Assembly: GCF_016097555.1 (NCBI RefSeq)
Contig: NC_054702.1
Coordinates: 86,632,525 to 86,696,524, forward strand
From: Gigantopelta aegis
Lineage: Eukaryota > Mollusca > Gastropoda > Neomphalida > Peltospiridae
Direction: 5' to 3'
Length of the DNA: 64,000 nucleotides
Shown: positions 15,395 to 62,840 of the stretch, one piece after another
Position numbering within the stretch: position 1 is the first letter of the stretch
How the letters are laid out: every line of letters begins with the position of its first letter
Position numbers and translations under genes: made by a program
The notes under the pieces: generated by a model
What the model saw: the letters and a program-made list of their open reading frames with translations, nothing else
What the model was told of the DNA's origin: nothing
Databases searched by the model: none

Positions 15395-16998
15395 TACTAC
15401 TCAAAAGAATTTAAGGGTCAAAAATTTATAACCAAATAAGTTTCAGAGTGTATTAGATTGATGATGTAAACTACATCAAAAATTTAATTTATCATTCCAT
15501 ATTTGCAAAAAACACAAATAAACGTCACTGTATACAAGAAAGTCACATGACATGCTGTCAAAGTTGAAGGTTGTCAAACATGGATTTTACACATTAGAAC
15601 ATTCGTTTAATAGTGTGTGAATCCACCCCTGGCGCGAATACACTCGACACATCGTTGCCTCATGCTGTTGATCAGACGTCTGAAGAACTCTTGGGGAATG
15701 GCCTGCCACTCTGCCATAAGAAGTTGACCCAGATCATGAAGGTTGGCCGGAGGGGCATGGTTATCCCGAACTCTCCTGCCTAATTCGTCCCAGGCGTTCT
15801 CTATTGGGGCCAAGTCAGGCGAATATGCTGGCCAATCCATCCTGGCGATACCTTGTTGTCTGAGAAAGTCCGTTACCACCCTGGCGCGGTGGGGTCTGGC
15901 ATTGTCATCCTGCAGAACTGCCCCGCCGCCAATCTGCTGAAGGCCTGGGAGAACCAACGGCCGGATAATCTCATTCAGATAGAGGATTCCATTCAGATTG
16001 CCATCCACCACATAGAGGGGGGTCCTGTGGTGGATAGAGATGCCGCCCCACACCATGACGCTGCCACCACCGAACCGGTGACGTTGTCTAATGTTAACGT
16101 CAGCGAAGCGCTCCCCAGGACGTCTGTAGACACGAACCCGACCGTCGTTGAACTGGAGACTAAACCTGGACTCATCAGTGAACATCACTCGACCCTACTA
16201 AACACGTTGCCACCGCAGATGAAACGTGCACCAGTGACGTCTGGCCGTTCTGTGACGTGGTAGGAGTGGTGGTCGAACAGCCTGGCGACGGCAGCGTAGA
16301 TTATTGGCTCTCAGACGATTGCGTATGGTTTGATCAGACACTCGAGTTCCAGTCGCAGTCCGCAGATTGTCACGTAATCGACGTGCAGTGGTTGTGCGTT
16401 GACGTAGAGCCATATTGGTGATGTAGCGGTCCTCTCTATTTGTAGTGCTTCGGGGTCTTCCCGAACGTGGACGATTTCGAACAGAATTCGTTGCTAGGTA
16501 CCGTTGCCACAGTCGGCCAATGACACTCTGACTGACACCAAGTCTCAGAGCAACATTTCTTTGCGTATTGCCATCCTGAAGCCAAGCAATAGCCCTTCCT
16601 CGATCTTTGAGAGTCAGTTGACGTCGTACCATTGTCGAATTTGGAGTGTGCACCGTACATGAACGCAAGCTCCAATTATACGGAAATTCAGCATTGGGAA
16701 CATGGAATACACATGCAAAGCGTGCAAATGAAGCGCTTTGTGAAAAAGCAAGTTATGGGCACTTAGCAGACCTTTCGCTTTCGCCCTAATTTACGTGCAA
16801 ATGTAAGCATGTTTTCGCCATTAGAACTAGTCGACAGTGTCAATGACAGTGGATTTTAATTCATTTATGGGTTGCTTAGACCCACTTTCGTCAAAATGGA
16901 ACAATACCATGCGTGACATTATGGTCTAGCTAATATAACTGACATTCAGAAAATAATGTCAAAAATATCGTCTGACCCTTAAATTCTTTTGAGTAGTA
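15395..16998 (-). mobile_element. Tc1/mariner transposon, nearly full length
   Basis: The inverted ends TACTACTCAAAAGAATTTAA and TTAAATTCTTTTGAGTAGTA are identical over at least 25 bp, with TA at both flanks (15393-15394, 16999-17000). At 1604 bp with one transposase frame on the minus strand, it has the usual size and layout of a Tc1-type element. The GC-rich coding core stands out from the AT-rich surroundings, pointing to a recent arrival. Confidence 0.95.
15607..16632 (-). pseudogene. Tc1-type DD34E transposase with two adjacent TAG codons
   Basis: From the start MVRRQLTLKDRGRAI the frame runs to GGFTHY and a stop, 341 codons, the normal Tc1 length. It shows a paired-like HTH region (VALRLGVSQSVIGRLWQRYL), a GRPRS-type hook and the catalytic triad in MFTDESRF, VLQDDNARPHRA and YSPDLAPIENAW. 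The only interruption I see is two consecutive in-frame TAG codons at 16195-16200, just before MFTDES. Each could arise by one transition, for example from CAG TGG. Everything else, including spacing between the acidic residues, looks intact, so it was probably inactivated recently. Confidence 0.9.
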
Positions 16999-38604: not shown

Positions 38605-41600
38605 ATGAAGGTATGTATTTGATTTTCTCGCATTATTTATTCTATAGAGATTATTATACGAGCTTGTGTGTCGTACTGATTTTACGAAACGAGTGTGAGG
38701 ATTTTTGTATTGCCCGAGCAAGAGCGAGGGTAATACATGAATCCTGACACGAGTTTCGTAAAATCAGTACGACTCACACGCAAGTGTAATAATTTCTTTA
38801 TTATCCATATTATTATTGTTGTTTTCTTTATGAATAACAAGACCCAACTCAAAATGTTTCAGCCACAACCAGAAGGAGACGACAAAATGACGTCATATTT
38901 CAAATGCACAGTCTGAACTAGGACTGGAGAAGCAACATCATGTTATGACGTCGCTTCGTATGATTATTATTAACTCGGTTATGTTGAACCATATGGATAA
39001 TAAAAAATTATTATTACATGAATAAATTCCACCAAGCAGCCCATACGTACATCGCTTTACGAAGTGATCATAGCGTTAAGATCACCTTTAGAGCATAAGG
39101 TAGCTAAGATTGCTTTGTAAAACGGGGCCGTGATATTTGTTTAAGCTGCAGTTACAACAACTTTAGTGATTCACCTCCCAAAAAGCTAAGTTTGGTCGCG
39201 TTCCCATTCATAAAGTATATACAAAAGTATATACAGACTATTCCCAAAGAATCTGGGGCCGATTTCATTAAATATCGTAAGTTTACGTCTGCTACTAGCA
39301 GTTATACAGGTCGTGCGTTTACACGTGTTCGGTCCATCCAGAACTTTTATTACAGTTTCTACGTGATACTGAATTTTATTGTAAATTTTAATTGTATCTA
39401 TCTGTGATATTTGTATTTTTGCACAGTCCTTTACACTGTGTTTTTATTTACATCTTGAATTTTTATATTGATGTGATTCAACATTTAATGTTTTGCTTTT
39501 ACCATAGTGTGACACCCGCTGGGGTGTCATTAAACATTCATTCATTCATTCATTCATTCATTACACGTGTTTGGCGTCGATTTCACGTAGAAAATTGCTT
39601 CTTTACGGATGATGGAGCATTTTAAAGACAAAAGAAAATGAAATGTGTATTTCTAACTGTATTTGTTGTATTATAATAGTAATAAGAATTGTGGTTTAGT
39701 CGTAGATTTACCTTTACGTGCAAAACTAGGCTTACGATGTTTTGTGAAATTGGGCCATGGGGCCTAATTCACAAAGCTCTCTGAGGCTCTGCTAGACAAC
39801 AAAGCATCCTCTTTGCAAGTCTTTTAGCATTGCACTGCAATATCGCTAAGTTGCGATATTTTAGTGAATTAGGTCCCAAGACTACTGCATCTTCAACAAG
39901 ATTTCAGGACCTATACAGTTATGACCTATAGATCAAGATTAAAGACTAATGTTTCGCAAACACCTGGCATCATCACTGTTTTGACAGTGTTTCATGAGTG
40001 CATATACCATCGCAGTTGCTATATATATATCCACAGAGTTCTGCCTTGTGCATGTTTAAATTGGTCGTACCAGACAAGGAAGGATGTACATCGTCTTGGG
40101 GTGTACAGTCCATCTATCTACAGACACAACACACGACAGCGCTTTCTGGTAACAGTCACGACCTTGCCAAAAAGTCCTTTTGACTCTTGTTTTGTTTAGA
40201 GAAACAGATTTTGATTATGGTAATGGTTTTGCATGTTTAGATTTCGTTACAAGGTACAATCACAATATCACTGTTTTTAAAGGTACTGGTCACAGTTCTC
40301 GTGTCCGTGTTCGTGGTTCAGACGATGGCGGGGGAGGTGGTGATGCGGAGGAGACGGAACCAAGTTCTTCCGTCCACAAAGTTCATTACCATGGTAACGC
40401 GGACATCACGACTTGACTACGACAAATTGGACATGTGTCCAGTGTGTATCGACTTCGCCGATGAAGCTATTGAGATGTTGACAGAGCTAGCATTAGGTAT
40501 ATTGTCCAATATATATATCCGGCTGCCCAAAACAAGATGAACGCTACTTTACTGATTAATAACTTGGAAAGTATTTATACCAGTATAATAATATTCTGTA
40601 CTTCATTTTTGGTGGTTATTACCCATGTTCAAAGTAAATATTTCAAGTACACAGGTTGAATACCTCATAAGTAACAAGAGAATCAAACTTGCATGTTAAA
40701 AGATGTAATGCCGGAGTCACATACACTTAGGGTGGTGAATATCTGGTGCTCAGTGAGTACCACTGTGTGTCACTGTGATGACATCTGTAAAGTCAAAGTC
40801 AAAGTTTGTTTTGTTTAACGACACCGCTAGAGGACATTGATTTATTAAACATCGGCTATTGGATGTCAATCATTTGGTAATTTCGACATATAGTTTCAGA
40901 GAGGAAACCCGCCACACTTTTCCATTAGTAAAACGGGATTTTTTATATGCATCATCCCACAGACAGGATAGCACATTCCACGGCCTTTGATATACCAGTC
41001 GTGGTGCATTGGCTGGAACGAGAAATAGCTCAATGGGCCCACGGACAGGGATCGATCCCAAACCGATCGCGCATCAAGCGAGCGCTTTACCACTGGGCTA
41101 CATCCCACTCCTCTGTTAGTCAAATGCCAATTGTCAAATGCAGGTAGCCTGTTAGATTATGTTTCGACTTATTTTCACTGAAAATCTTTAATAGTACTGA
41201 TTACTCCAAGATTTGGAGAAACGGTTTTCAGTAACGGTCTCAATAAGGCTGACAAAGCTAAGATTAAAGCTTGTTTTATTGAAAAGGGATAAGGAGCAAA
41301 ACGATTATTGAATACATTTTTCGGGAAAAGATTGAAAGATAAGTTCTGTATACTATCTCATCGAGATTAAAAACACTGACTAAATAAGAAACCGGGGTCA
41401 GTGTGTCAATAGGACGAGGAATACAATGATAATTTTTAAAACTAAAATAAGGCAACTTGAATCAGCTTTTTAGCATTACATCGTTTGATATACAATTTTG
41501 ATTCTGTCACTATTTAAAACGCATTCTACCTATTTACTTGAAATTTTTACCAAAAATGAATAATACCCATAATGATATCAGATAATTTTCATGTTTGTTT

Positions 41601-44600
41601 TGTTTAACGACACCACTGGAGCACATTGATTTATTAATCATCGGCTATTGGATTTTAAACATATGGTCATTTTGACACAGTTATAGAGAGGAAACCCGCT
41701 ACATTTAGTAGCAAGGGATCTTTTTTATGCACCATCCCACAGACAAGATAGCACATACCACGGCCTTTAACATACCAGTCGTGGTGCACTGGCTGGAACG
41801 AGAAATTGCCCAATGGGCCCACAGTCGAGGATCGATCCTAGACCGACCGCGCATCAGGTGTGCGCTTTACCATTGGGCTAAATGTAGGTCTGTAGACAGG
41901 GTGTTTGAAGGTGAAGGGGGATTTAACAGGCGAATACGCACTCAGTATTTTGACTTATCCAACGTAATTGCTACATAATAAAACAGACATTTATTTTTAA
42001 TTATAACGCTTGTAAATACTTTTGTTGTATTATTTCCAGATATAGGCGTCTTGGATTCGTGCCAAGTATTGTGTGATGCTCTAGCCTCTAAAACAGGAAG
42101 CCAAATTCTAGGGGTGCTTTGTCAAATTTTCTGCGACATCGAAGGTATCAACGAGTTTGTGAAGATTTTACAAAAGTGAGGCCTATATACGATAGTGATT
42201 GTATATATTTAGCTTTATGCTTTAGTAAAGTGAACCTGCGATGTCTTTTCGTTAAAAATATTCGTCCTCCATTTTGTGTCATACACAGGGTTGCAATACA
42301 CACGCACACTCGTACTGTGAGTGTTTTCAAGGTGCAACGAATGGGACAGAAGTTGTTCCACCTTATCAGTCACCTTGTATCAACATTGTTTATGGCCCTG
42401 TCACACTGTAGCGTATCGTACTAGCGTATGTCAGCGTATGAAAAATATCACTCATACGCTGGTATACGCTGACATACGCTATGGGTACGTTAGGCATAGG
42501 CTGTATACGTTTGAAGGACGGTGGCATACGCTGGCATACGGCGAGGTAGAAAATAATTTTTAAGCATGTTTAAACATTTTGTGCGTACTCCGACGTATGG
42601 TTTATACGCTAAGCATACGTTAGGCAGACACTGAATACGCTAGAGGTATGTGACTCCTAGGTCGAGTACGCTGGTCGTACGCTGGCATGAAGGTATTGAT
42701 AGCGCATTGATAGCGCATGAGTAACGTACTTCTAACATATGTCTGACGTATCTGCAACGTATATAGACATCTTAGCGTATGCCTGACGATTGAGTAACTT
42801 AATTAACGTACAACTAGCATATGATTGGCGTCTGGCCAGCGTATACCCAGCGTATTGCCAGCGTTTTGAGAAAGTGTACATATAGGTTCCCATTTCTAGC
42901 TCTTCTTCACTTCTTCGTGGACCTCGGACGAGAGACGATGGAGGTAACTCTTCTCCAACACCAGCATGATCTGATGAATTTGGCAGTTCACCACATCCAA
43001 GATAACAGGAGAAGGAGGAGAAGAAGAAGAAGAAGAAGACGTGAAGTCTGGGTGAGGCCATGGATCGGCAGGCGACGGCAGTTTGGCCTCTACGACCAGC
43101 TTCTGGTGGAGCTAAGATCCTTCAAGAACTTCATGCGGATGCCCCCCGAGATGTTCGATGAGCTGCTAGCCAGAGTGGGTCCCAGGATCACCAAACAACA
43201 CACCTGGTCCAGGGAGCCCCTGGAGCCTGGACTGAAGCTCGCACTGACTTTACGCCACCTTGCCTCTGGGAGCAAGTATTCAACCATGAAATACGGATGG
43301 AGGGTCCCCCACAACACCCAGTCACTCATTGTCAGAGAGGTCTGCCAAGCCATCATCGATGAGTACATGCCCGAGGTGATGAACTGCCCCACCACTCCTG
43401 AGGGATTGCGTGCCATGTCTGACAAGTTCCTCCAGAAGTGGAACTTCCCCCATACATGTGGAGCACTAGATGGGAAGCACATTGCCTGCAAGTGTCCTCC
43501 AAAGAGTGGTTTCCAATACTTCAACTATAAGGGATTCTACTCTGTTGTACTCATGGCCCTTGTAGACGCGGATTACAAGTTCATCTGGCCAGACCCCGGC
43601 GGTACAGGATCAGCATCAGACGCACAGATCTACAATAACTCTGAAATCAAGGAATTTGCTGAAGACGGTACCATCGGATTCCCGGCCCCAGATACTCTAC
43701 CCAATGACTACCAGGATGTCCCCTACTTCTTCATCGACAACGATGCCTTCGCCCTCCGAGAGACCACGATGAAGCCATACAGCCTCCGGGATCTGGACAA
43801 TGAAGAGAGGATATTTAACTACAGGCTTTCCCGCGACAGGAGGGTGGTTGAAAATGCCTTCGGCATCCTGGCATCCATACGCAGAGTACGCTGGCCATAC
43901 GCTGGTCACACGCTGACATACGCTGGTCATACGCTGTCATACGCTAGCCATACGCAGAGTACGCTGGCCATAGGCTAACATTTCCTGACATTCGCTAGTC
44001 ATACGCTGGCCATACGCTACTCATACGCTACGCATAGGTTAAATACGGTAAGTATACGCACAATTCTGCATTTTCAAGGGCTTCTTGTGCGTATCAAAAT
44101 TATTTTATGAATTTTCATACGCAACTCATACGTTTCTCTCATACGCTATAGTGTGACAGGGCCATTAGATATTAATTCATGAGTACATAAAAAAGGCTCT
44201 TAAAGTTTAATTAGACATTCATAAAACACGAAAGGTCTCAACATCATGGAAGAATATTTATCCATATAAATTGATATGACATTTAGTTTATTGCATTTGC
44301 ATCATTATAAAAATGACCTATACAGTGCGGAGTCATTCTTTTCAACACACTGGTAAAGTTTAAGAAAACAAAGTGGTGTTGGGATGTTTTATAATTCAAG
44401 GGTGCAATTCAAGTGATGAGTGGAACATGAGACAATTTTATTTAAATCTTTTTTTGCATATATAATAATAATTATTATTATTGTTATACTAATAATGTTT
44501 CTACAGATGTGCTGTAATTAGGCTTTAATTTTGTATGTTGTTTTTATCTTTCTCATAATTGAATTGATAAATATGTTTGTGATGATAACAGTTTTAAAGA

Positions 44601-44721: not shown

Positions 44722-47270
44722 TATTCAAATATTCACATTCTCGTATAATTATTATAAACACTTTCTGACACACACACAAGCGTAAACATTGGCTTAAATA
44801 TGTTTTAATATTTAGGTTTTTTTTTTTTTTTTTTTTTTTTTTTGTTTAAATCTAGGTGTGTTTTATTTTCAACAGGGTAGATCTGGACGACATCTATTTC
44901 TGCGAGCTTGTCAAGGGATGTCCAGTCTTTGATGGAGGAGATGCCCACATCACTGAACTCACCATCAGTCCAGTGTCCGGCCCACGAGGTAAGATACGGA
45001 AATAATTTAACCCTTTTTAGTGTGCTGCAGTACAGTGCATCATCCATATCCACAATTCACATCAGTAGTCGAAATGATTAGGGACGTTTCTGTAATGATC
45101 ATATTGAATGGAGATTGGAGATACTTTCAAGGGATACCAGGTATCTGTAACATCCCATAAAATAATGTGGCATTATATTTACATGAAATTTGTTTTCTAA
45201 TGGACACACTATGAACCAGATTGATATCTTGCTTGCTGCTCATTAGAGCACTGTTACTTGGTCTCGTTTTACCATTATACATGTATTGCCTATAGTTCCA
45301 GATAGTAAACAAAGAATGATCCATTGCAGGTTTAGACTGTAAATATATTTTATTATTATCTTATTTTCACTTTGTAGGTAAAAGGGAGATAGACTTCACA
45401 TATATGACCAAAAATGGAACCGGAACTGGACAAATAGATATACAAGTTATTACAGTGGATAAATTTCCAGTAGGTGAGGAGTCAAAGAGGTATCCAGCAA
45501 ATCATGACAATTTAGAAATTTATGCTAATAATGCCAGGTACATATACAGTAGCATCTCGTTGGGTTGAACTCGGAAGGGTCGAATACACCGCAACACTCG
45601 AACCAAAAACGAAGTCAATACAATACAATACAATATTGTTTTTTCTCCAATATACAAGTATGTTTACTGGACATGTCAAGTGAATACTGGGGATATGTGT
45701 GAGTGCGTGTGCATGAGGACGTGCATGTGTGTCTGCACCCATCTGGACCCAATTTCATAAAGCACCGTAAGCCCAGTTATGCACGTAAATGTAAATCTAC
45801 GACTAAACCACAACTCTTTATTACTATTAAAAATATAGCTAATATAGTCTGAAATACAATTATTTCAGTTTCTTTTGTCCTTGAAATGCTCCATCTTTCA
45901 CAATGATGTAAATGTTCTACATGAAATGGATACCAAACATATGTAAACGTATGACCTAGTAGTAGAAGTAAAGTTACGATGTTTTGTGAAATTGGCTCCT
46001 GGACATCAGTAAGGTTTAGTTATAACGTTTAACCGGTATAACTCCTAGTAGCAGACGTAAAGTTACGATGTTTTGTGAAATTGGCTCCTGGACATCAGTA
46101 AGGTTTAGTTATAACGTATTACCGGTATAACTCCTAGTAGTAGACGTAAAGTTACGATGTTTTGTGAAATTGGCTCCTGGACATCAGTATGGTTTAGTTA
46201 TAACGTTTAACCGGTATAACTCCTAGTAGCAGACGTAAAGTTACGATGTTTTGTGAAATTGGCTCCTGGACAGGTTTAATTATAACGTTTAATACTTTAT
46301 GTCTTCCTTGCAATGTAAATTAATTTAGCAAAACACCAAACCTTGTGTGTTTTATTTTCCAGACTCAAGACTCTTCAACAAAGCCGGCGATCCAGGCAAC
46401 TACTCGTTTAAGTTCATACTAGACACCACGGGTGACTGCGATCCTCCGTGTGAAGAGTGGCAGAAAGGCAACTACACACTCATAGCATGTTAGTACATGT
46501 ACTTATTGCACTTATCTTTTCAGAAGCACGTTATAAGGTCAAACCTGATCAAGATTACGGCCACCTGTATTGAGCAGCCACCTGTATTAAGAGGCCACAT
46601 TTTAAATTGTTTATTCTCCCAAATCATCAAATATAGTACAAACTAACCTCTATTACTCAGCCATTTGTCTAAAAATGCCATTTTGCGATACCCCACTTGG
46701 TGACTGCTGAACACAGTTTGACTGTACTTCTGTACTTACTACTTGTACTTCTGTTGTACTTACTAACGATAAATATATGGGGGTTAATTCATAAAGGGTT
46801 TGGGAATGGTTGAATGGTTTTAAACTTTCGTTAATTGTTTTAAGCAGATTTTCTTTATGGAAATGTTTTTTGTAATACTCCAAAATAATTGTTTTCATAA
46901 TTATAAAAATGCATATACCTCTGCGAAGTAACGGTTCTCTAGCGAAGACCTAAGACGGTATTTCCCCGTTTAAACATCAACACTTTAGTTTCACTCTGTT
47001 TAACTTTATCCAGATATGTTACAGGTTTGAAGATTAACCAAACTTAATATCTATTTTCATGGGCTGAAACTTGGGTCTGTGCCTTTAAGTAGACATTTTA
47101 ACACTGTAGAAATAAAGTTTTAAACGACCTGCCTAGTTGACACTAATAATGTGTTCATTTTGTTTGTATTTCCAGCTGTTTGTAATGGTGAATGTGGCAG
47201 CAAACATCCACACAGCGCGATATACGACACTAGATCCGTGAAATTCACCATTACCGGCGACAAGAATTAA
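38605..47270 (+). CDS. Countin-like secreted saposin-B-domain protein, copy 1, complete
   Basis: Seven coding exons: 38605-38610, 40283-40496, 42040-42175, 44876-44988, 45378-45473, 46363-46488, 47176-47270. All junctions are GT/AG with matching phases; the product is 261 aa. The first coding exon is only ATG AAG. Exon 2 supplies a signal peptide (VLVTVLVSVFVVQTMAG) and an RRRR basic patch. A saposin-B-type domain follows with paired cysteines CPVC, SCQVLC, LCQIFC and FCELVKGC. The C-terminal half looks beta-rich, with NGTGTG, NYSFKF and NYTL (possible N-glycosylation) and late cysteines (CDPPCEEW, CNGECGS). This layout resembles Dictyostelium countin-type proteins; animal homologues are of unknown function, and saposin domains generally bind lipids. 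A Harbinger transposon sits in the intron after exon 3. Confidence 0.85.
38651..38805. repeat. Long imperfect hairpin, intron 1 of copy 1
   Basis: Arms of about 65 bp: GTCGTACTGATTTTACGAAA on the left and TTTCGTAAAATCAGTACGAC on the right, meeting near GCCCGAGCAAGAGCGAGGG. It is probably a foldback MITE. Confidence 0.75.
39400..39565 (+). repeat. 3' tail of an interspersed retroelement with (ATTC)n
   Basis: CCTTTACACTGTGTTTTTAT, GCTGGGGTGTCATTAAACAT and an ATTC tail recur in diverged form at 54850-55050, and inverted near 23370-23420. A simple-repeat tail suggests a LINE or SINE 3' end. Confidence 0.5.
39760..39877. mobile_element. Small MITE with GGGCCTAATTCACAAA ends
   Basis: GGGCCTAATTCAC on the left and GTGAATTAGGTCCC on the right are inverted ends of a 118-bp stretch without coding capacity. 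Confidence 0.5.
40803..41108 (-). mobile_element. tRNA-derived SINE, full length, tail type B
   Basis: The type B tail (TTGTTTAACGACACCGCTAG), middle (GATATACCAGTCGTGGTGCA) and inverted tRNA-like head (GCTTTACCACTGGGCTACAT) are all present. It lies in intron 2 of countin-like copy 1. Confidence 0.9.
41593..41882 (-). mobile_element. tRNA-derived SINE, tail type B, head slightly truncated
   Basis: TTGTTTAACGACACCACTGG to GCGCTTTACCATTGGGCTAA. It is a second copy in the same intron and orientation as 40803-41108. Confidence 0.9.
42393..44164 (+). mobile_element. PIF/Harbinger transposon, 1.77 kb
   Basis: The inverted ends TGGCCCTGTCACACT and AGTGTGACAGGGCCA are perfect over 15 bp, with the TTA target duplication (42390-42392, 44165-44167) typical of PIF/Harbinger. 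Both sub-terminal zones, about 400 bp on the left and 270 bp on the right, are packed with direct and inverted TACGCT / AGCGTA motifs. One nuclease-type frame lies between. I see no Myb/SANT-like second gene, which autonomous relatives normally carry. Confidence 0.95.
42938..43978 (+). CDS. Harbinger (HARBI1-like) DDE nuclease with repeat-encoded tail
   Basis: From ATG at 42938 the frame gives 346 residues without interruption. An arginine-rich stretch (codons AGA/AGG, about 43005-43045) is followed by the DDE_Tnp_4 nuclease: HTCGALDGKHIACKCP with the first Asp, then WPDPGGTGSASDAQIYNNSE with the second, and RRVVENAFGILASIRR with the Glu. This is the HARBI1 fold of PIF/Harbinger nucleases. 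After SIRRV the frame runs into the sub-terminal repeats and ends in a periodic tail (YAGHTLTYAGHTLSYASHTQ). The normal C-terminal helices after the catalytic Glu are therefore missing, probably through deletion. The start could be further upstream at a non-ATG codon, but 42938 gives the usual length. Confidence 0.85.
   Translation: MEVTLLQHQHDLMNLAVHHIQDNRRRRRRRRRRRREVWVRPWIGRRRQFGLYDQLLVELRSFKNFMRMPPEMFDELLARVGPRITKQHTWSREPLEPGLKLALTLRHLASGSKYSTMKYGWRVPHNTQSLIVREVCQAIIDEYMPEVMNCPTTPEGLRAMSDKFLQKWNFPHTCGALDGKHIACKCPPKSGFQYFNYKGFYSVVLMALVDADYKFIWPDPGGTGSASDAQIYNNSEIKEFAEDGTIGFPAPDTLPNDYQDVPYFFIDNDAFALRETTMKPYSLRDLDNEERIFNYRLSRDRRVVENAFGILASIRRVRWPYAGHTLTYAGHTLSYASHTQSTLAIG
44641..44719. repeat. 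(GA)n microsatellite
   Basis: A GA run of nearly 80 bp in the intron after the Harbinger insertion. A T-run (44818-44843) lies about 30 bp before exon 44876. Confidence 0.95.
45547..45620 (+). mobile_element. Left-end fragment of the 27290-type pogo element
   Basis: CAGTAGCATCTCGTTGGGTT, then GGAAGGGTCGAATACACCGC, then CGAACCAAAAACGAAGTC match the first 70 bp of 27290-28925. Only this end is present, next to a TACAATACAA repeat. Confidence 0.7.
45955..46290. repeat. About 90-bp tandem repeat, four units
   Basis: Units of GACGTAAAGTTACGATGTTT, then GTGAAATTGGCTCCTGGACA, then GTTTAGTTATAACGTTTAAC, nearly identical. It lies in the intron between exons 45378-45473 and 46363-46488, ending about 75 bp before the acceptor. 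Confidence 0.9.
46860..47093. mobile_element. MITE family A, right half
   Basis: CATGGGCTGAAACTTGGGTC with a CCTTTAA end and the GGTTTGAAGATTAACCAAAC block match other family A copies. The left end is not recognisable. Confidence 0.6.
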
Positions 47271-53400: not shown

Positions 53401-55853
53401 TCAGTTCTGGGTTGTTATTATTTGTTGTTGTTAATTAACTACTGCGGCAGTACATTTGTCAGCGTAGGTTAATACAGATTCCAAAGTGTATTGTGTTTTT
53501 GTTGTGTTTTCTAGTGAACTAAACGTGCTATAATAATATATACTTTATATAAGATCTTATCTCTGATCATACCTAGACGAGCCAGCGGGTATAACTGCCT
53601 GTTACAGAGAGATCTAATAGATATACAGTTAGGAGAGATATTTTGATAATCGTGTTTCATTCAGTTACGGGTATTATAGGATCCCCGTGACAGCAATTTA
53701 AAAGTACAATTGGGCGCCAGTTTTTCAAAATTGCTTCGGCTTGTCACCTTTAGGGATACATGTTATAATTCCTTGCTTTTGGGTAACCGAAAATACTCCT
53801 TTTTCAAAGCCTTCGTTTATTGATCTTAATAAATAAATGCCAATATCTTTTCAGAAAATTTTGTGAAACTCATAAGTATATTCATCAGGACTTTTGTTTA
53901 ATGTTTTAGGACGTTTAGCAATTCATCATAAGTAACTTCACCTTCAAGAGATTTAGCCTCACTTCATTTAACTTATTTATTGTATTATTTTGAAAAAAAC
54001 ATGGAATTAAGTTCATATTCAGGAATTAAATGGTTATTTTGATGCAAACAGATTTTCATAAAATGTCTTAGCTTCCCCAAAAATATCACGTGTGCGAGTT
54101 AAAAATGTATCATCTTCCGATTGAATTTGTGTCATTGACTTGCTAGTAAAATTCCTGTTTTCTAAATTACAAAAGTTTTTTTTTCTCTGTCATCAATCCA
54201 TTTAGCTCTGGAGCGAATAAGAATGCCTTCCATCGTTTTTCTTCTTATATTTTCTAGTTCCAGTTTTTTTGCTTGTAAGCGATCAAAGTCAATATTGTCT
54301 ATGTTATTTTCCAAGTAATTTATTTCCCTATTTAAAACTTATTATAGTTTCTTGCTTTCTTTATTCTTAAATGAGGCATTTGAAATCGTTTTACCTCGGA
54401 TTTCTATAAGAAGAGTTTCCATAAAAAGCTGATCATTAATCTTGAATTTTATTTCATGAGATATATCTTCTGGTGATATTGGTTCAAAACCGTTAGCAGA
54501 GTATTGCTGGACAACCTTAAAATTACTTCTTTTATAGCTTTAACATATTCCTTGTCACCCAAAAGGGAGTTATTAAATTTCCTATATGTGTTTGAGTTTT
54601 GTTGGTTTGTCAAGTTGAATTTTATGCTTAATGCTTATCTGGTCTGAAATATAATCGGAAATTATATTTGAGTCACTAATAAAAAAATATAAATCTTGCT
54701 AGATCAGAAAAAAAATCAAGTCTGGCTTACTTAATAGGAGTTTTCTTCTCCATGTAAATTGCTAGATTTGTGGATTATGATCACGTCATATATCAACTAG
54801 ATCTAGCTCACACATCATTTGTAAAACATGTTTATAGTTTGATAGTTATATACTTTGATATTTGTATTGTATTGTGCTTTTACCCCACAGCTCTTTACAC
54901 TGGTTTTTCTTTTACATTAATATATGTAAGTTTGATTTTTAAATTAATCTTATTCATATACAAATGTACTTACCTTCTACCTTTGTTTCACAACCAATAG
55001 CCGATGTGAATTTTTATACTGGGGTGTCGTTAAACATTCATGTATTCATTATTTAAGATCAATAAATAAAATATTTCATATAGCTGGCAAAACTAGAATA
55101 CAAAGAATATAAAATGCAGAACAAAAGTTGGTGTATTGTTAGTGTTATTACTATTTTTAAAGGTACTGGTCGCAGTTCTCGTGTCCGTGTTCATGGTGCA
55201 GACAGTGGCGGGGGAGGTGGTGATGCGGAGGAGACGAAACCAAGTTCTCCCGTCCACACAGTTCATTACCATAGTAACGCGGACATCACGACTTAACTAC
55301 GACAAATTGGACATGTGTCCACTGTGTATCGACTTCGCCGATGAAGCTATCGAGATATTGATATCTTTATCATTAGGTAATTACAAAACTGGCTTACAGA
55401 CTAGTATAAGATATTCAGTAACAGATGCTTTACTAACCCGAGTACTCTGACGGTAAGAGAGCGAGACTGACTTTTGGACAGTTGTTCAACAGTCCGTTTA
55501 GCTCTCTTACCGCCAGAGTACTCGGGCTAATACTATACTTTATTTACTTTGGGCCTAATGACTTTTGAAAACATACATATATTCTATACATACATATCAG
55601 GCCCGTACCCAATGGGGAGTCGGGGGGTCGGTTATTTATTTATTTATTACCATATTGGGCACTGACCCTTTTGTAGTCCTATTTCAATTCACATGCTAAG
55701 GAGAGCTCTGGTACATCAAAGATGGTTACACGTTAGTTATCACAAGTCCATTTAAAGATAATAAATGGTTAAACCTGAATTAAAACAAATAATAAATAAA
55801 TAAATACATACATACATACACATGTACACACACACACAGACACACACACACAG

Positions 55854-55887
<34 letters not shown>

Positions 55888-58800
55888 CTACTACTACTAC
55901 TACAACTACTACCGAGGTCGACTCGTGTGGTAACAGTGTATACATACAATTAACGTTTTCAGATATAGGTGTGATGGACTCGTGTGGTGACAGTGTATAC
56001 ACACATTTGATGTTTTTCGGATATAGGTGTGGTCGACTCGTGTGGTGACAGTGTATACATACAATTGATGTTTTTCAGATATAGATGTGGTCGACTCGTG
56101 TGGTGACAGTGTATACATACATACAATTGATGTTTTTCAGATATAGGTGTGATCGACTCGTGTAGTGACAGTGTATACATACAACTGACCTTTTCAGATA
56201 TAGGTGTGGTCGACTTGTGTGGTTACAGTGTATACATACAACTGACCTTTTCAGATATAGGTGTGATCGACTCGTGTAGTGACAGTGTATATATACATTT
56301 GATGTTTTTCAGATATAGGTGTGGTCGACTTGTGTGGTTACAGTGTATACATACAACTGACGTTTTCAGATATAGGTGTGATCGACTCGTGTAGTGAAAG
56401 TGTATATATACATTTGATGTTTTTCAGATATAGGTGTGGTCAATTCGTGTGGTTACAGTGTATACATACAACTGACCTTTTCAGATATAGGTGTGATCGA
56501 CTCGTGTAGTGACAGTGTATATATACATTTGATGTTTTTCAGATATAGGTGTGGTCGACTTGTGTGGTTACAGTGTATACATACAACTGACGTTTTCAGA
56601 TATAGGTGTGATCGACTCGTGTAGTGAAAGTGTATATATACATTTGATGTTTTTCAGATATAGGTGTGGTCAATTCGTGTGGTTACAGTGTATACATACA
56701 ACTGACCTTTTCAGATATAGGTGTGATCGACTCGTGTAGTGACAGTGTATATATACATTTGATGTTTTTCAGATATAGGTGTGGTCGACTATGGTGGTTA
56801 CACAGTGTATACATACATTTGACGTTTTCAGATATAGGTGTGATGGACTCGTGTGGTGACAGTGTATACATACAATTGGTGTTTTTCGGATATAGGTGTG
56901 GTCAGTTCGTGTGGCGACAGTGTATACATACAACTGACGTTTTCAGATATAGGTGTGATGGACTCGTGTAGTGAAAGTGTATACATACATTTGATGTTTT
57001 TCAGATGTGTGTGGTTAACTCGTGTGGTAGCAGTGTATATATACAATTGATGTTTTTCAGATATAGGTGTGATCGACTCGTGTAGTGACAGCGTATACAT
57101 ACAATTGTTGTTTTTTCAGATGTGTGTGGTTAACTCGTGTGGTAGCAGTGTATATATACAACTGATATTTTTCAGATATAGGTGTGATCGACTCGTGTGG
57201 TTACACAGTGCACACACACAATTGACGTTTTCAGATATAGGTGTGATCGACTACGGTGGTTACACAGTGTATACACACAATTGACGTTTTCAGATATAGG
57301 TGTGATCGACTACGGTGGTTACACAGTGTATACACACAATTGACGTTTTCAGATATAGGTGTGATCGACTACGGTGGTTACACAGTGTATACACACAATT
57401 GACGTTTTCAGATATAGGTGTGATCGACTCGTGTAGTGACAGTTTATATATACAGTTGATGTTTTTCGGATATAGGTGTGGTCAATTAGTGTGGCGACAG
57501 TGTATACATACAATTGACGTTGTCAGATATAGGTGTGATCGACTCGTGTGGTTACAAAGTGTACATATACAATTGATGTTTTTCAGATATAGGTGTGATC
57601 GACTCGTGTAGTGACAGTGTATACATACAATTGTTGTTTTTCAGATGTGTGTGGTTAACTCGTGTGGTAACAGTATACAATTGATGTTTTTCAGATATAG
57701 GTGTGATCGACTCGTGTAGTAGCAGTGTATACATACAATTGATGTTTTTCAGATATAGGTGTGATCGACTCGTGTGGAGTCTTATGTGATTTACTTGCCT
57801 CAAAAACGGGAAGTCAGGTTCTAGGAGCGCTTTGTAATTTCTTCTGTGACATCGAAGGCGCAAAAGAGTTTGCTAAAATCTTACAGAAGTGAGACTTTAC
57901 GATCATGGTGACTGTATATTTAGCTATCATAGTATAATCGTGTCACAAAGTTATGCGTTTTGTGGGAGGGAGGACGGTGAGGGGTAGGAATATCAATGAA
58001 ACAGTTTTTCCTCCATAGCCATTTCCACAGGCAGTATTCTTCGTTGTAAAAATAAACTTATGGCATCATATGGCAGTGAACTAAATCTTCCTAGATACTA
58101 TAACAATAAGCCAATTAACATATTGATGATGTGGAACTTAGCACCAGATATATAAACGGTGAGCTATGGTTCTTGCATGAGGAGGAGCATTTCATGCGAA
58201 CTGTTGGAAATGGTTTATTTAACGACGCACTCAACACATTTTATTTACGTTTATATGGCGTCGGACATATGGTTAAGAACCACACAGATATTGAGAGAGG
58301 AAACCCACTGTGGCCACTTCATGGGCTACTCTTTTCGATTAGCAGCAAGGGATCTTTTATATGCATCATCCCACAGACAGGATAACACATACCACGACCT
58401 TTAATATATCATTCGTGGTGCACTAGCTGGAGCGAGAAATAGCCCAATGGGCCCACCGACGGGGATCGATCCCAGTCCGACCGCGCATTTAAGCGAACAC
58501 TTTACCACTGGGCTACGTCCCGCCCTGCGAACTGTTGGAGTCACAATTGATTTCACAGTAGTTCATGAGTGCATGGTGTCACATAAGGCATAAAGTGTCC
58601 AAATACAATAACGGTTTTGTCAGTTTGAATGCTCAGTTAGGCTATAATCGTAAATAATACGTAATATATGCTTTATATTTATTACCAGTACTTGTCATTT
58701 AGTTTGATTTTACCCTAGAAGATTTAAATATTTTACTAACGAAAAGTCGAGAAATGTTTTTCATAAGCCGATTTCAGTAGAGAAACGTTGAAGTTAAAAT

Positions 58801-59407
58801 AAATGATATTGGTGTAATTTTAGGGAGGACCTTGACGATATCTATTTCTGCGAGCTCGTCAAGGGATGTCCAGTCTTTGATGGAGGAGATGCCCGCATCA
58901 CTGAACTCACCATCAGTCCAGTGTCCGGCCCACCGGGTGAGATACAGAAATCATTAAACTATACTCAACGAAATGAATTAAGGACCAGCAGATATTTTAG
59001 CATCATTTAACTATGCAGCGTCTTTTAATGTAAGGGATATTCATCAAACAACAAGTATGGTTACGAACCACTGATTAACGAAACACAGTCGTATGTGCAT
59101 TTCGGTAGTTTTTTTCATAAATGCACAAAACAAAAATCAATAAAATAACATAATAAAATAAAAACCACCGTGTTTTTATGTGTATCACGGGTCAAATTGT
59201 ACTGAAACAAGCATTAGAAGTCATCTGTAATAAAAAAAAAAAAAAAAACCCCATTAAAAAAGACATTAGCAAAGATAAGACATAGGTAAGGAACTGTCTC
59301 CTCCCACAGATGAAATTCAAATTAATAAATAGTCCCTCCGTCCCAAGTTGCTGTCATCTTCCGACACCTATGTTTTTTCAGTAAAGCAAATTCGCTATTT
59401 CTTGCCT

Positions 59408-59466
<59 letters not shown>

Positions 59467-59768
59467 AACAAACGAAAAAACAATCCATTCAGTTTGTAGT
59501 GTAAATGTATCAAATGACTATCTGGTTTTTGTTTGGTAGGTGAAAGGGAGATCGACTTCAGTTACGTTACTCGGAATGGAACTGGAACTGGGCAGTTAGA
59601 AGTTCACATTAATACAGTGGACAAATTACCACTTGGTAAGTCAGAAATCCACAGGTTCCAATACATGATAATGTTGTATCTGCTTCAAAGGTATCCGTGT
59701 GTGTATGTGTGCGTGTGCGTGTGTGTGTGCGGTACTAGTATATATATATATATGTGTATGTGTATGTG

Positions 59769-59846
<78 letters not shown>

Positions 59847-62840
59847 TACACACAAATATATATGTATGTATGTATACATACATAAATATATACATACATA
59901 CATACATACATACATACATAGGATGACTCGATAGCTCAGAACGTATCGTGGCAAGTCTACAAGTTGCGAGCGATTCAGTGCCATAGGTTCGAGTCCCAGC
60001 AACGACATGGGACAATTTGTAAGGCCAGAAAGGATTTTATTATTGCCTGCGCCAGTGCGTTAATATCTATGTATGTAACAGTCAACCTCGACATACATAC
60101 AATATACAGATATTCATACATCAAGACATATGTACGTGCGTGCGTGCGCGCGCGCGTGCGTGTGTGACTGTATGTGTGTGTGTGCATGCATATGTGTAGA
60201 TTTATGTACAGGCCCGAAACCAATGGGGGATTGGGGAGGGGGTCGGTCGACCCCCCTCCCCCTACCGGTGACCTTTTTTTTAATATGCCCCGGAGCCACC
60301 TAAGCAACTCGGGCGCTTCGCGCCCTCGCCTATCACATAAGCCTAAACGACCCCCCCCCCCCCACTCCTCTCAAAATCCTGGTTACAGGCCTGATGCATA
60401 CGTATACATGCACGCGAGAATATGTGTTCTCTGTGTATTTATTTGTGCGTGACAAATATTATACTGATGGTTCATGATAAACCCACGGGTCAATAAAGAT
60501 AAAAGAAATACTCATTAGTTTCATTTTTTTTTTAAATTCAAATAATTTTCAGTCAATCTGTTAAATAAATGGGATGAATTTTCAGTCAATTTGTAAACTG
60601 ACTGAAACTTTAGTCATTTTACAAACTGACTGATTTTAGGCATTCATTGCAACCTATGTAACATACACCTGGAAATTACTTGAGAACCACCAAGATTTGA
60701 TCATATGGCTTATACATTGGCAAGATATTGTGAACATTTTCTTGACACAAAACACTGAAATTAAAGGTCTTTGTATACAGAGGATATTGAAAACAAATTG
60801 CTAGTAAGTGATTCTTTTATAGAAAAAAGGTTTTTTTGTTTAACTACACCACTAGAGCACATTGATTTATTCATCATCGGCTATTAGATGTTAAACATTT
60901 GGTCATTTGGACCTGTAGTCTTACAGAGGAAACCCGCTACATTTGTCCATTAGTAGCAAGGGTTCTTGTATATGCATCATCCAACAGACATGGTAGCATA
61001 TACCACCGCCTTTGATATACCAGTCGTGGTGCACTGGCTGGAACGAGAAATAGCCCAATGAGCCCACCGACGGTGATCGGTCCCAGACCGACCGCGCATC
61101 AGACTAGCGCTTTACCACTGAGCTACGTCCCGCCCTATATAGAAAAAGACAGATACCTGAAAATGTATGGTAATTAACTATTGAGCTGGAATTACACGGA
61201 TGTGCTTCTCGTAAGTAGTTTCTTTATGCCATCTCGCTAAATACCCAGTGGATACAAAATAGAGAATTAGGAACGGTAGCCTTTAAAATGACTGTCATGA
61301 GTTTGCAGCCATTGTAAGATGTTTGCAAACAGAGCCTTGTTGGCGACTACTATTTCATACTAAATATATTTTCTTGTTTAGAATACCAGTGTCTGTATAT
61401 CGAATGTGTTTGTAGCACTCTTTTTTTTACTTTAATTCGTGATATATATTTTTTCGTACGTACGAAATTATTTGGAGGTAAAATCCAGTTTGGGCTACTA
61501 TAAGGATTAGGTCAACAACAAACACCTTGTAAATACAGACACTGATATTTTAAATAAGAAAATGTATTTAATTTGTATGTTACGTCATCGAAAAGACTAT
61601 TGGTCTGAAACATTTTATAATGGTTGTAAACTCAGGACTGTCCCTTTAAACTATTAACGAATAACGATTAGAGCTGGGCGGTATACCGTATCAATCTAAT
61701 TAAAATTAGCTCCACTATTACATGTGGATCTAAAGACAGCCAGTTGGAGCTCATGTCCACCAATCAAAACCTGGTAACATTTCGTCTGTAAATAATGATT
61801 TAAATATTGACCAATCACAATTCGCCTTTTATAACGTTATTTGGGAGCATACAAATTCTAAAAATATCGGGCGAGTCTATTTTAGTGGCCGCAGTACAGC
61901 GAACCATACCAATACGTACGGGGTGGGTTATCAGTCTTCAATTTTACATTAAAAATTATTTATTTATTTATAAAATTAAAAAAACCTAAATCAGTCTTCA
62001 GTTTTACATTACAAATTATTTATTTTATAAAATAAAACATGTTTTAAGGCATTCGTAATTCACACGAAACATGTCGTATACCCTCAGGATAATTCGGAAT
62101 GTTTTCAAATTATTTTTAAATCACTGGCAGGATTCTGCAAGTAAGGTTTTGATTGGTGGACATGAGCTCCAACTGGCTGTCTTTAGATCCACATGTAATA
62201 GTGGAGCTAATTTTAATTAGATTGTATACCGTATATACAGTTCGGTAGCGGTATTATGTCAATACCGATTTACCATACCGAGCAAATTTCAAAATACCGA
62301 AATTTCGGTATTAAAAAATATTTCCCGGAAAGCACTAATAATGTATCTGACAAACGCAAAATGGGTTGGTATAAATCAGACGAGAGCCTTGTGTATGGAA
62401 TTTAATTGTATTTAGATGAAATTAGCGGGTGAGCCTTAAGACAGGCATGCATGAGTATACCAAAAACAGCGCTCGATACCGCCCTGCTCTAATAACGATC
62501 AAATTTGATGTGGATGGTACAAAGCCTACTTTCGTTGTATACAATTTGTATAACCTAATTCAAACTCATTCATCCACTGACAAATATAACATTCAAAATA
62601 TTTGCTAAAACATTTATTTTTCTTATTAAAACAATTCCATACCAAAGATATTTTTAAATTTTTCCAATGACTTAAATGTCTGTGTATACATGTTTACAGA
62701 CATACGACTTTTCAACGAAGCCGCAAAACCAGGCGCCTACTCCTTTAGATTTATGCTGGACGCCGAGAAATCGGACGACTGCCACCCCGAGAAATTCCCG
62801 TGCGAAACGTGGAAGAAAGGAAACTACACGCTCGTAATAT
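50482..62840 (+). CDS. Countin-like saposin-B protein, copy 2, 3' partial
   Basis: Exons: 50482-50487 (ATG AAG only), 55163-55376, 57753-57888, 58824-58936, 59540-59635, 62700-62840. All are GT/AG and in phase. Sizes equal copy 1 (6, 214, 136, 113, 96) except the sixth, 141 versus 126 nt (five extra residues). The last exon, about 95 nt in copy 1, is not in the window. It has the signal peptide [17 protein letters not shown], the same RRRR patch, saposin cysteines CPLC, SCGVLC, LCNFFC and FCELVKGC, and [13 protein letters not shown] in the C-terminal part. By my count 60 of 71 residues of exon 2 match copy 1. It is a tandem duplicate in the same orientation 3.2 kb downstream. Introns are much larger, and the one before exon 3 ends in an array of acceptor-site copies. 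All six exons appear intact. Confidence 0.85.
50698..50756. mobile_element. 59-bp Mutator-like MITE
   Basis: CAATCTAATTAAAATTAGCT and its inverted partner AGCTAATTTTAATCAAATTG are nearly the whole element. A 9-bp duplication TGAAATTAT (50689-50697, 50757-50765) flanks it. The arms equal the outer end of the larger element at 61692-62224. Confidence 0.8.
51004..51234. mobile_element. MITE with CATGGGCGTACATGGG ends
   Basis: CATGGGCGTACATGGG on the left and CTATGTACGCCCATG on the right are inverted ends. A G-run (51017-51032) and C-run (51051-51062) flank GTTCGATGGGTTCGACCGAC. Inside, a GGAACCCCCCTTTTCAAAAT unit is duplicated. Confidence 0.7.
51690..54790 (-). mobile_element. Truncated L1-like LINE, split by a solo LTR
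   Basis: Read on the minus strand, the order is the end of an endonuclease domain ([32 protein letters not shown]), a linker helix ([29 protein letters not shown]), then reverse transcriptase: [40 protein letters not shown] and the catalytic TQYADDTEF at about 51900-51925. These motifs fit the L1/Tx1 type of non-LTR element. Multiple stops and frame changes run through it, and it has no intact ORF. The 5' half and clear 3' end are missing. It lies in intron 1 of countin-like copy 2, opposite to the gene. Confidence 0.85.
52440..53692. mobile_element. Solo LTR inserted in the LINE
   Basis: A 1253-bp stretch begins TGTGACGGTACATG and ends ATCCCCGTGACA (TG...CA, with the short inverted TGTGACGG / CCGTGACA type ends). 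A 5-bp target duplication GCAAT (52435-52439, 53693-53697) flanks it. LINE reverse transcriptase sequence continues on both sides. No internal retroelement region is present, so it is a solo LTR, probably Ty3/gypsy-type given the 5-bp duplication. An internal duplication of about 110 bp occurs at about 53115-53330. It is younger than the LINE it interrupts. Confidence 0.85.
54850..55050 (+). repeat. Diverged retroelement tail
   Basis: CTCTTTACACTGGTTTTTCT and ACTGGGGTGTCGTTAAACAT match the tail at 39400-39565. It sits about 115 bp before exon 2 of copy 2, while the match in copy 1 sits about 720 bp before its exon 2. Confidence 0.45.
55436..55528. repeat. Short foldback element
   Basis: ACCCGAGTACTCTGACGGTA on the left and ACCGCCAGAGTACTCGGGCT on the right form arms of about 27 bp with a loop of about 40 bp. 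It lies just after exon 2 of countin-like copy 2. Confidence 0.75.
55598..55680. mobile_element. End fragment of a CAGGCCCGTA-type MITE
   Basis: CAGGCCCGTACCCAATGGGG and a GTCGGGGGGTCGG block match the left ends of related MITEs (compare 60209-60393). No partner end is found. Confidence 0.5.
55797..55912. repeat. Compound microsatellite (ATAC, CA, ACT)
   Basis: ATAC units, then a CA run of about 60 bp with a few changes, then ACT repeats. It directly precedes the acceptor-site array. Confidence 0.9.
55915..57752 (+). repeat. Minisatellite built from a 3' splice site and exon start
   Basis: About 31 units of 57-59 bp end at the real acceptor of exon 57753-57888. Each unit has a pyrimidine stretch with CAG (GATGTTTTTCAG or GACGTTTTCAG), then the first bases of the exon (ATATAGGTGTGATCGACTCG), then about 25 bp of spacer (AGTGACAGTGTATACATACA). 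Three units have CGG for CAG (near 56019, 56887, 57468), and three read ATGTGTGTGG in place of ATATAGGTGTGG. Three neighbouring 59-bp units (about 57232-57409) are almost identical. The corresponding intron of copy 1 has a single acceptor and no array. Confidence 0.95.
58209..58525 (-). mobile_element. tRNA-derived SINE, full length, tail type A, with target duplication
   Basis: A perfect 14-bp duplication TGCGAACTGTTGGA (58195-58208, 58526-58539) brackets the insertion, as expected for LINE-driven retrotransposition. Tail (GGTTTATTTAACGACGCACT, the first bases shared with the duplication), middle and inverted head (TTTACCACTGGGCTACGTCC) are all present. It is the best-delimited SINE copy in the window. 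Confidence 0.95.
59413..59462. repeat. (CA)n microsatellite
   Basis: A CA run of about 50 bp, 78 bp upstream of exon 59540 of countin-like copy 2. Confidence 0.95.
59695..59922. repeat. Compound GT / TA / ATAC microsatellite
   Basis: A GT-rich run, then GTGTAT units, a TA run (about 59776-59843), then ATAC and TACA units. It begins about 60 bp after exon 59540-59635. Confidence 0.95.
60209..60393. mobile_element. MITE with CAGGCCCG ends
   Basis: CAGGCCCGAAACCAATGGGG on the left and CTGGTTACAGGCCTG on the right are imperfect inverted ends. Inside are GGTCGGTCGACCCCCCTCCC and a C-run. It belongs with the 35087, 37536 and 55598 group. Confidence 0.65.
60825..61137 (-). mobile_element. tRNA-derived SINE, full length, tail type B
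   Basis: The tail TTGTTTAACTACACCACTAG, middle (GATATACCAGTCGTGGTGCA) and inverted head (CTTTACCACTGAGCTACGTC) are present. It lies in the intron before exon 62700. Confidence 0.92.
61282..61650. mobile_element. MITE, family B
   Basis: TTTAAAATGACTGTCATGAG on the left and CTCAGGACTGTCCCTTTAAA on the right. The TTTTCGTACGTACGAAATTA centre is shared with 49238-49626. Confidence 0.7.
61669..62491. mobile_element. hAT-type element carrying a nested foldback element
   Basis: The ends TAGAGCTGGGCGGTATAC and GATACCGCCCTGCTCTA are inverted, with a perfect 8-bp duplication ATAACGAT (61661-61668, 62492-62499). The interior right side is rich in ACCGAAATTTCGGTATT-type palindromes. No transposase remains. 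The element at 61692-62224 inserted only 23 bp from its left end. Confidence 0.88.
61692..62224. mobile_element. Mutator-like foldback element with 80-bp identical arms
   Basis: The first 80 bp (CAATCTAATTAAAATTAGCT through CCACCAATCAAAACC) recur as an exact inverted copy at the right end. A perfect 10-bp duplication TATACCGTAT (61682-61691, 62225-62234) flanks it. Duplications of 9-10 bp with long inverted arms fit Mutator-like elements. The interior of about 370 bp is AT-rich without a transposase. Perfect arm identity suggests recent mobility or gene conversion between the arms. Confidence 0.88.

Follow-up and report, generated by a model that had tools for sequence, protein, structure and literature searches.

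The closest described relatives of the array considered here are the so-called mirages of amphioxus, minisatellite duplications of intron-exon boundaries found in Adh3, TnC and the globin genes BflGb6 and BflGb9 (PMC3087553), to which PGBD5 has been added in a paper that also cites TnC (PMC3902484). According to these two papers, AG and GT are retained in many, not all, of the units, RT-PCR suggested no interference with splicing (PMC3087553), and mirages are likewise reported not to disturb splicing in the other (PMC3902484). The units are of 10–72 bp in Adh3 and of 150–160 bp in BflGb6, where each consists of the 3' end of the intron and the 5' part of the exon; two haplotypes of BflGb6 carry 6 and 3 units, and the units at the edge of its cluster are excluded from homogenization (PMC3087553). 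A human case is the VNTR in intron 18 of ABCA7, whose 25-bp unit starts with the donor of exon 18. VNTR length there is inversely related to expression, skipping of exon 19 increases with length, and retention of one unit, at about 2%, is independent of it (PMC5954066).

A literature search (titles and the openings of abstracts) gave, among the matches listed, no acceptor-carrying example beyond amphioxus. The minisatellite of human IFI6 (6-16) reportedly supplies multiple splice donors for one transcript. Recursive (zero-exon) splice sites consist of an acceptor AG and a donor GT fused with no gap.

The window considered in this study is the whole stretch of 64,000 nucleotides taken from the gastropod Gigantopelta aegis, and coordinates are those of the window unless prefixed with C4, the contig on which the window occupies 86632525-86696524. 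It holds two tandem members, c1 and c2, of one protein family that is cysteine-rich and has a start that looks, by eye, like a signal peptide. Translation, homology, and AG/GT ends served to define the exon borders, which are collected in Table 1 with the other features of the locus. The original prediction described these genes as saposin- or countin-like, a label that the searches did not bear out: Pfam gave no saposin or countin match, NCBIfam returned 0 families, and a search of PDB sequences found only two HORMA chains (E 1.5–1.6) and no solved saposin.

Table 1. Features of the c1 and c2 genes and of the repeat array at the start of c2 exon 3. A slash marks the cut.
Feature	Position	Strand	Basis
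c1, 261 aa	exons 38605, 40283-40496, 42040-42175, 44876-44988, 45378-45473, 46363-46488, 47176 to stop near 47269	+	
c1 exon 3, homologue of c2 exon 3, single acceptor, without repeat unit	42040..42175	+	
c2 exon 2, upstream splice partner; donor GTAATT at 55377	55163..55376	+	translation, homology to c1 40283-40496
(CA)n and (CTA)n microsatellites, left bound of array	55806..55912	+	sequence, TRF
Boundary minisatellite, leading partial unit and 31 decoy units	55916..57752	+	TRF start 55918; 2 further bases by eye
Dimer/tetramer higher-order repeat within array	56191..56809	+	230-bp shift 99% identical over 274 nt
Three successive identical 59-bp units	57235..57411	+	unit comparison
c2 true exon 3, 136 nt; donor GTGAGA at 57889; first 25 nt are the exon half of the unit	57753..57888	+	
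Donor-like TAG/GTGTGA, cut after exon base 6	57756..57764	+	true exon 3
c2 exon 4	58824..58936	+	
c2 exon 5	59540..59635	+	
c2 exon 6	62700..62840	+	
c2 exon 7	outside window, near C4:86700907	+	

Exons 2 through 7 of c2 retain open frames and AG/GT ends, and a first exon resembling that of c1 (ATGAAG/GTA[AT]) was not found upstream of c2 within the window. Compared between c1 and c2, exon 2 has a dN/dS of 0.63, indicating weak constraint, and exon 3 has a dS of ~1.8 and a dN of ~0.16. Silent divergence between the two genes is uneven, with dS at 0.13 in exon 2 and 0.26 in exon 4 and at ~1.8 in exon 3 and ~0.9 in exon 5; the pattern looks like patchy gene conversion between c1 and c2, sparing the exon that bears the array.

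The surroundings contain other repeats. The intron of c2 between exons 5 and 6 has an 81-bp perfect inverted repeat (61692-61772 and 62144-62224), two adjacent near-perfect minisatellites (35 bp x 5 and 66 bp x 12) lie at 8294-9300, and the intron of c1 before exon 6 has an 89-bp minisatellite of 3.6 copies (45955-46272), which stops 90 bp before the exon and so does not span the boundary. There is also a long open frame at 42818-43978, within the intron that separates exons 3 and 4 of c1, which resembles a PIF/Harbinger transposase, and open frames at 15607-16752 on the minus strand that resemble a transposase of the Tc1/mariner type.

TRF, run on the window, places the array in front of exon 3 of c2 at 55918-57777, with a period of 58, 32.2 copies and a score of 2357, and scores its description as a dimer higher (period 115, score 2467); the maximum score over 100 mononucleotide shuffles of the c2 intron was 50. 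Each unit pairs the final ~33 nt of intron 2 with the opening 25 nt of exon 3. It had been predicted that about 20 bases of the exon are repeated and that the array stops exactly where the true exon begins, and both statements require correction, the first to 25 nt and the second because homology extends into the true exon, as far as 57777. Including the true junction at 57753 there are 32 acceptor positions, 29 with CAG and 3 with CGG. The 31 decoys ahead of the true junction comprise 28 with CAG and 3 with CGG (exon starts 56021, 56890 and 57470), numbers that agree with the approximately 31 copies and 28 CAGs originally put forward. Successive units are spaced by 58 bp (12 cases), 57 (8), 59 (6), 56 (2), and 50, 60 and 62 (one each), and so the proposed unit of 57–59 bp holds for 26 of the 31 spacings and fails for the rest, the full range being 50–62 bp.

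The left edge of the array falls within a unit, right after the (CTA)n microsatellite. Units differ pairwise by a mean p of 0.130 (465 pairs, nine of them identical), and second neighbors are closer to each other than next neighbors are (p of 0.094 at lag 2 vs 0.144 at lag 1). The dimer pattern and the triple of identical units show recent turnover. Three features of a mirage are seen here: the tandem unit combines an intron end with an exon start, the splice signal survives in many though not all of the units, and the lag pattern together with the identical pairs (9/465) is that of concerted evolution within the cluster. The assembly places the array in a contig of 120.6 Mb.

Protein and exon searches found four nearby relatives of c2, c1 and c4 on the plus strand and c3 and c5 on the minus strand, and the genome search gave one further weak exon match on another contig. 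Only c3 among the four shares the boundary duplication of c2. It is an inverted paralogue, 139 kb from c2, in which just one decoy and a leading partial unit stand before the true exon, the left edge again having CTA repeats, so that decoy numbers stand at 31 in c2 vs one in c3, a comparison of paralogues and not of haplotypes. An element similar in appearance to the one at 15607-16752 lies just upstream of the c3 boundary. A search of the genome with the unit, whose match counts are lower bounds, placed the matches listed at these two genes, both on the contig of the window, and among the matches listed there was no second allele of the array. In c4 and c5, no repeat unit was found where exon 3 begins. 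As had been claimed for the paralogue at 42040, c1 has one acceptor, and the unit search listed no match there. The exon 3 starts of c1 and of c4 are each identical to the exon half of the unit at 17 of 25 nt.

By this distribution the founding duplication of the boundary is to be placed at a time when c1 and c4 had already branched off but c2 and c3 had not yet parted, the latter because c3 carries one decoy. The claim that the minisatellite arose after the gene duplicated is therefore right with regard to the split of c1 and c2, c1 being without the unit, and has to be modified with regard to the split of c2 and c3, which the founding event predates. The reverse history, in which the array is older and the exon start was recruited from it, was considered and rejected: the homologous exon start occurs in c1 and c4 in the absence of any unit, and so the array copied the gene. 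The origin of the array as a boundary-spanning minisatellite, dated relative to the paralogues, is in this sense confirmed by the sequence comparison.

The paralogues lie in mirrored order, c2/c4 at C4:86687.7-86715.2 kb on the plus strand and c3/c5 at 86829.3-86805.0 kb on the minus strand. Exon 2 of c3, c4 and c5 was not found within the stretch 86690001-86908000, and the genome search reported exon 2 for c1 and c2 only; since c3 is otherwise close to c2, this suggests that c3 has lost its exon 2. The exon 6 of c3 is present twice, one copy with a stop, and the acceptor of c5 exon 3 reads CTG, and on these grounds the mirrored c3/c5 segment looks degenerate.

How old the diversity of the array may be can be judged against the divergence of c2 and c3. 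Their flanks differ at 103 of 1558 aligned columns, counting the three longest alignments and leaving out shorter, partly microsatellite matches. The units of c2 (0.130), and its two unit classes (which differ by 0.157, bootstrap 0.099–0.221), have diverged more than these flanks, which suggests either that the array was already diverse before the split and that c3 later contracted, or that the array mutates faster. The margin for diversification before the split is thin, because the silent divergence between the exons of c2 and c3 is 0.096 and because neither unit class taken by itself shows a clear excess (shares of 0.09 and 0.05 of the bootstrap values lie at or below 0.069). In exons 3 through 6, 10 of 111 synonymous and 10 of 375 nonsynonymous sites have changed between c2 and c3 (Fisher p 0.006), as counted with the stop-free copy of the two c3 exon 6 copies; p is 0.002 without exon 6 and 0.02 with the other copy. 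From the silent excess it follows that, with the boundary duplication already in place, at least one of the two branches retained its coding function.

The consequences of using a decoy were predicted by joining exon 2 to each of them in turn and translating the product across the remaining units and onward into exon 3 and exon 4. A stop appears in all 31 products, 102–1843 nt upstream of the exon 3/4 junction. By the 50-nt rule established in mammals, mRNAs with stops so early would be targets of NMD. The two cases singled out in the original prediction translate as described there, the decoy at 57695 adding 58 nt and shifting the frame and that at 57645 adding 108 nt and reading DVCG-stop, and the more general expectation that decoys yield null transcripts extends to the whole set: decoys would be null if used. 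Skipping of exon 3 also shifts the frame (136 nt).

By locally measured features the true acceptor is indistinguishable from the decoys. Five of the 31 decoys are identical to it from -20 to +6 and ten from -14 to +6, and its pyrimidine content (8/11) falls within the overlapping range of theirs (6–9). The true acceptor is preceded by 26 nt free of AG; the corresponding stretch is 25–26 nt in 27 of the 31 decoys and 13, 20, 27 and 30 nt in the others, and at 25–26 nt the tract, and probably the branch point, would be contained within one unit. The notion that RNA structure hides the decoys found no support, in that local folding gives the true acceptor a predicted unpairedness of 0.47, inside the range of the decoys (0.29–0.59). 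What does distinguish the true acceptor is position, since it alone adjoins the body of the exon and it is nearest to the donor at 57889.

No selective purging of decoys is seen, 28/31 having retained CAG. The interval from -8 to +11 has 5 inferred changes vs 19.3 expected (permutation p ~0.001), the fewest among all 58 circular windows of its size, and that from -6 to +9 has 5 vs 15.3 (p 0.008), both intervals having been picked after the column entropies had been viewed. The interval -10 to +6 gave p 0.07 and -8 to -1 gave p 0.09, and those that span the acceptor more widely are unconserved (-20 to +3, 22 changes vs 23.4; -15 to +3, 19 vs 18.3). Conservation of the acceptor core, over the first two of these intervals, is suggestive and is not counted here as evidence for function.

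The unit also contains a donor-like site, TAG/GTGTGR, which would be cut six bases past the acceptor. It is found in 27 of the 31 decoys, 24 of them with CAG, and scores 2.3–2.7 bits by a donor weight matrix, which gives 2.5 for the exon 3 donor of c2 and 2.9 for that of exon 2. Acceptor and donor are separated by a gap of six bases, and the AG is not fused directly to the GT as in a recursive site. If the transcript were re-spliced by way of the six-base exon, the product would be open and in frame for all 24 of the CAG decoys that have the site, with ATATAG as the predicted in-frame insert, encoding Asp-Ile. A 24-nt microexon, consisting of the exon half of the unit and ending in TGTG/GT, was considered as well. 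The necessary GT is present in 14 of 31 units, and in 11 of the 14 the 24-nt insert is open and in frame; the donors, GTGGTAACA and GTGGTGACA, score -0.2 or less, and the reading was set aside as weak.

With moderate confidence I take the array to be a mirage, mainly a tolerated by-product rather than an evolved switch, at which the last acceptor is mainly used with some leak. Duplication of a 58-bp segment in the shared ancestor of c2 and c3 is shown by the unit that the two genes have in common and by their similar left edge, and unequal exchange or slippage may then have changed the number of units, to 31 in c2 and one in c3. For the spliceosome the final acceptor would most likely remain the main partner of exon 2, since it alone borders on the complete body of the exon and no other lies nearer to the downstream donor; partial leak to the decoys would give stop-bearing mRNA that is destroyed. 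Since the local features measured do not set the true acceptor apart, the case for the last acceptor draws on exon definition and on analogy. In favor of the mirage reading are the higher-order dimer repeat and the runs of identical units, typical of minisatellite turnover, and the published mirages, which share this anatomy and were reported without disturbance of splicing.

The same stop-bearing products, the frameshift on skipping exon 3, and the five decoys that match the true site exactly from -20 to +6 would also suit an array that acts as a dial on expression, the possibility raised in the original prediction, with decoys used in proportion to their number, or with a longer array causing exon 3 to be skipped, so that the number of units sets the level of c2 protein. 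ABCA7 offers a precedent, in that expression was reported to fall and exon 19 skipping to rise with VNTR length (PMC5954066). The same paper, however, puts the isoform that retains a unit at ~2% whatever the VNTR size (PMC5954066), and the published mirages are reported to splice normally (PMC3087553, PMC3902484). I consider copy number as a dial rather unlikely. It might instead be that c2 is decaying, given its weakly constrained exon 2 (dN/dS 0.63) and the failure to find a c1-like first coding exon upstream in the window, and that the array is the neutral debris of a dying gene, for which the degenerate state of the c3/c5 segment (c3 exon 2 not found, the stop in exon 6, the CTG of c5) also speaks. 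Exons 2–7 are nonetheless open with AG/GT ends, c2 and c3 differ at a larger share of silent than of replacement sites, and a six-base first coding exon would be easy to overlook; a dying c2 is an improbable explanation.

The donor-like sites bring up a ladder of recursive splicing, in which a transcript caught by a decoy is re-spliced onward and left with the Asp-Ile codons ATATAG in frame. The sites are present in 27/31 decoys and in the true exon, at scores comparable to those of the c2 donors (by the same matrix), the 24 CAG decoys with the site all give open products in frame, and the interval -8 to +11 is the least changed of the 58 (5 vs 19.3). Recursive sites, however, are in general gapless, six bases would make an extremely short exon, the interval was chosen post hoc and those from -20 and -15 to +3 are unconserved, and the donor-like site is part of the copied exon and is hence repeated anyway. 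I give such a ladder very little credence, and it is equally far-fetched that the array is a working part built of 24 acceptor-plus-donor modules (CAG, ATATAG, GTGTG), in which the number of units would govern how much leaks into null mRNA and would likewise set a series of Asp-Ile insertions. Finally, the boundary duplication might be real and the copy number of 31 an artefact of assembly, as the mirage in haplotype 1 of BflGb6 was reported to be apparently aberrant in the draft genome assembly (PMC3087553). The differences among units (mean p 0.130 over 465 pairs, 9 identical) speak against a mere doubling of reads, the array sits in a contig of 120.6 Mb, and c3 has a separate short version; an artefact is the least credible of the explanations considered.

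The array constitutes a natural competition experiment, in which the spliceosome has a choice of 29 CAG sites, five of the decoys being identical to the true site over -20 to +6, and the same genome contains a close paralogue with one decoy, c3, for which exon 2 was not found. Normal splicing would mean that exon definition prevails over local strength and over first-come timing alike; if splicing is disturbed, an array of variable length could tune expression.

The c2 array belongs to a known kind, the mirage, and what is new is its length and the paralogue with one decoy. The other systems resemble it in part. The IFI6 minisatellite, like the c2 array, supplies multiple splice sites, which are said to be donors, not acceptors. 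Recursive splice sites resemble the c2 unit in having acceptor and donor close together within an intron; in the unit the two are six bases apart and repeated in tandem, and their use is a prediction. The ABCA7 VNTR, as described, is likewise a tandem array that abuts an exon and has a splice signal in its unit, and its length is polymorphic and related to expression and to splicing, where exon skipping rather than unit retention is affected; its unit, however, carries a donor and lies in the intron, copying no coding sequence, whereas that of c2 carries an acceptor. The amphioxus mirages come closest, being tandem minisatellite-like duplications across an intron-exon boundary. The c2 array, with 31 decoys of ~58 bp as against the 3–6 units of 150–160 bp in BflGb6, is probably a case of a mirage outside amphioxus, and its host genome, unlike that of amphioxus, which is about half the size, amounts to 1.15 Gb.
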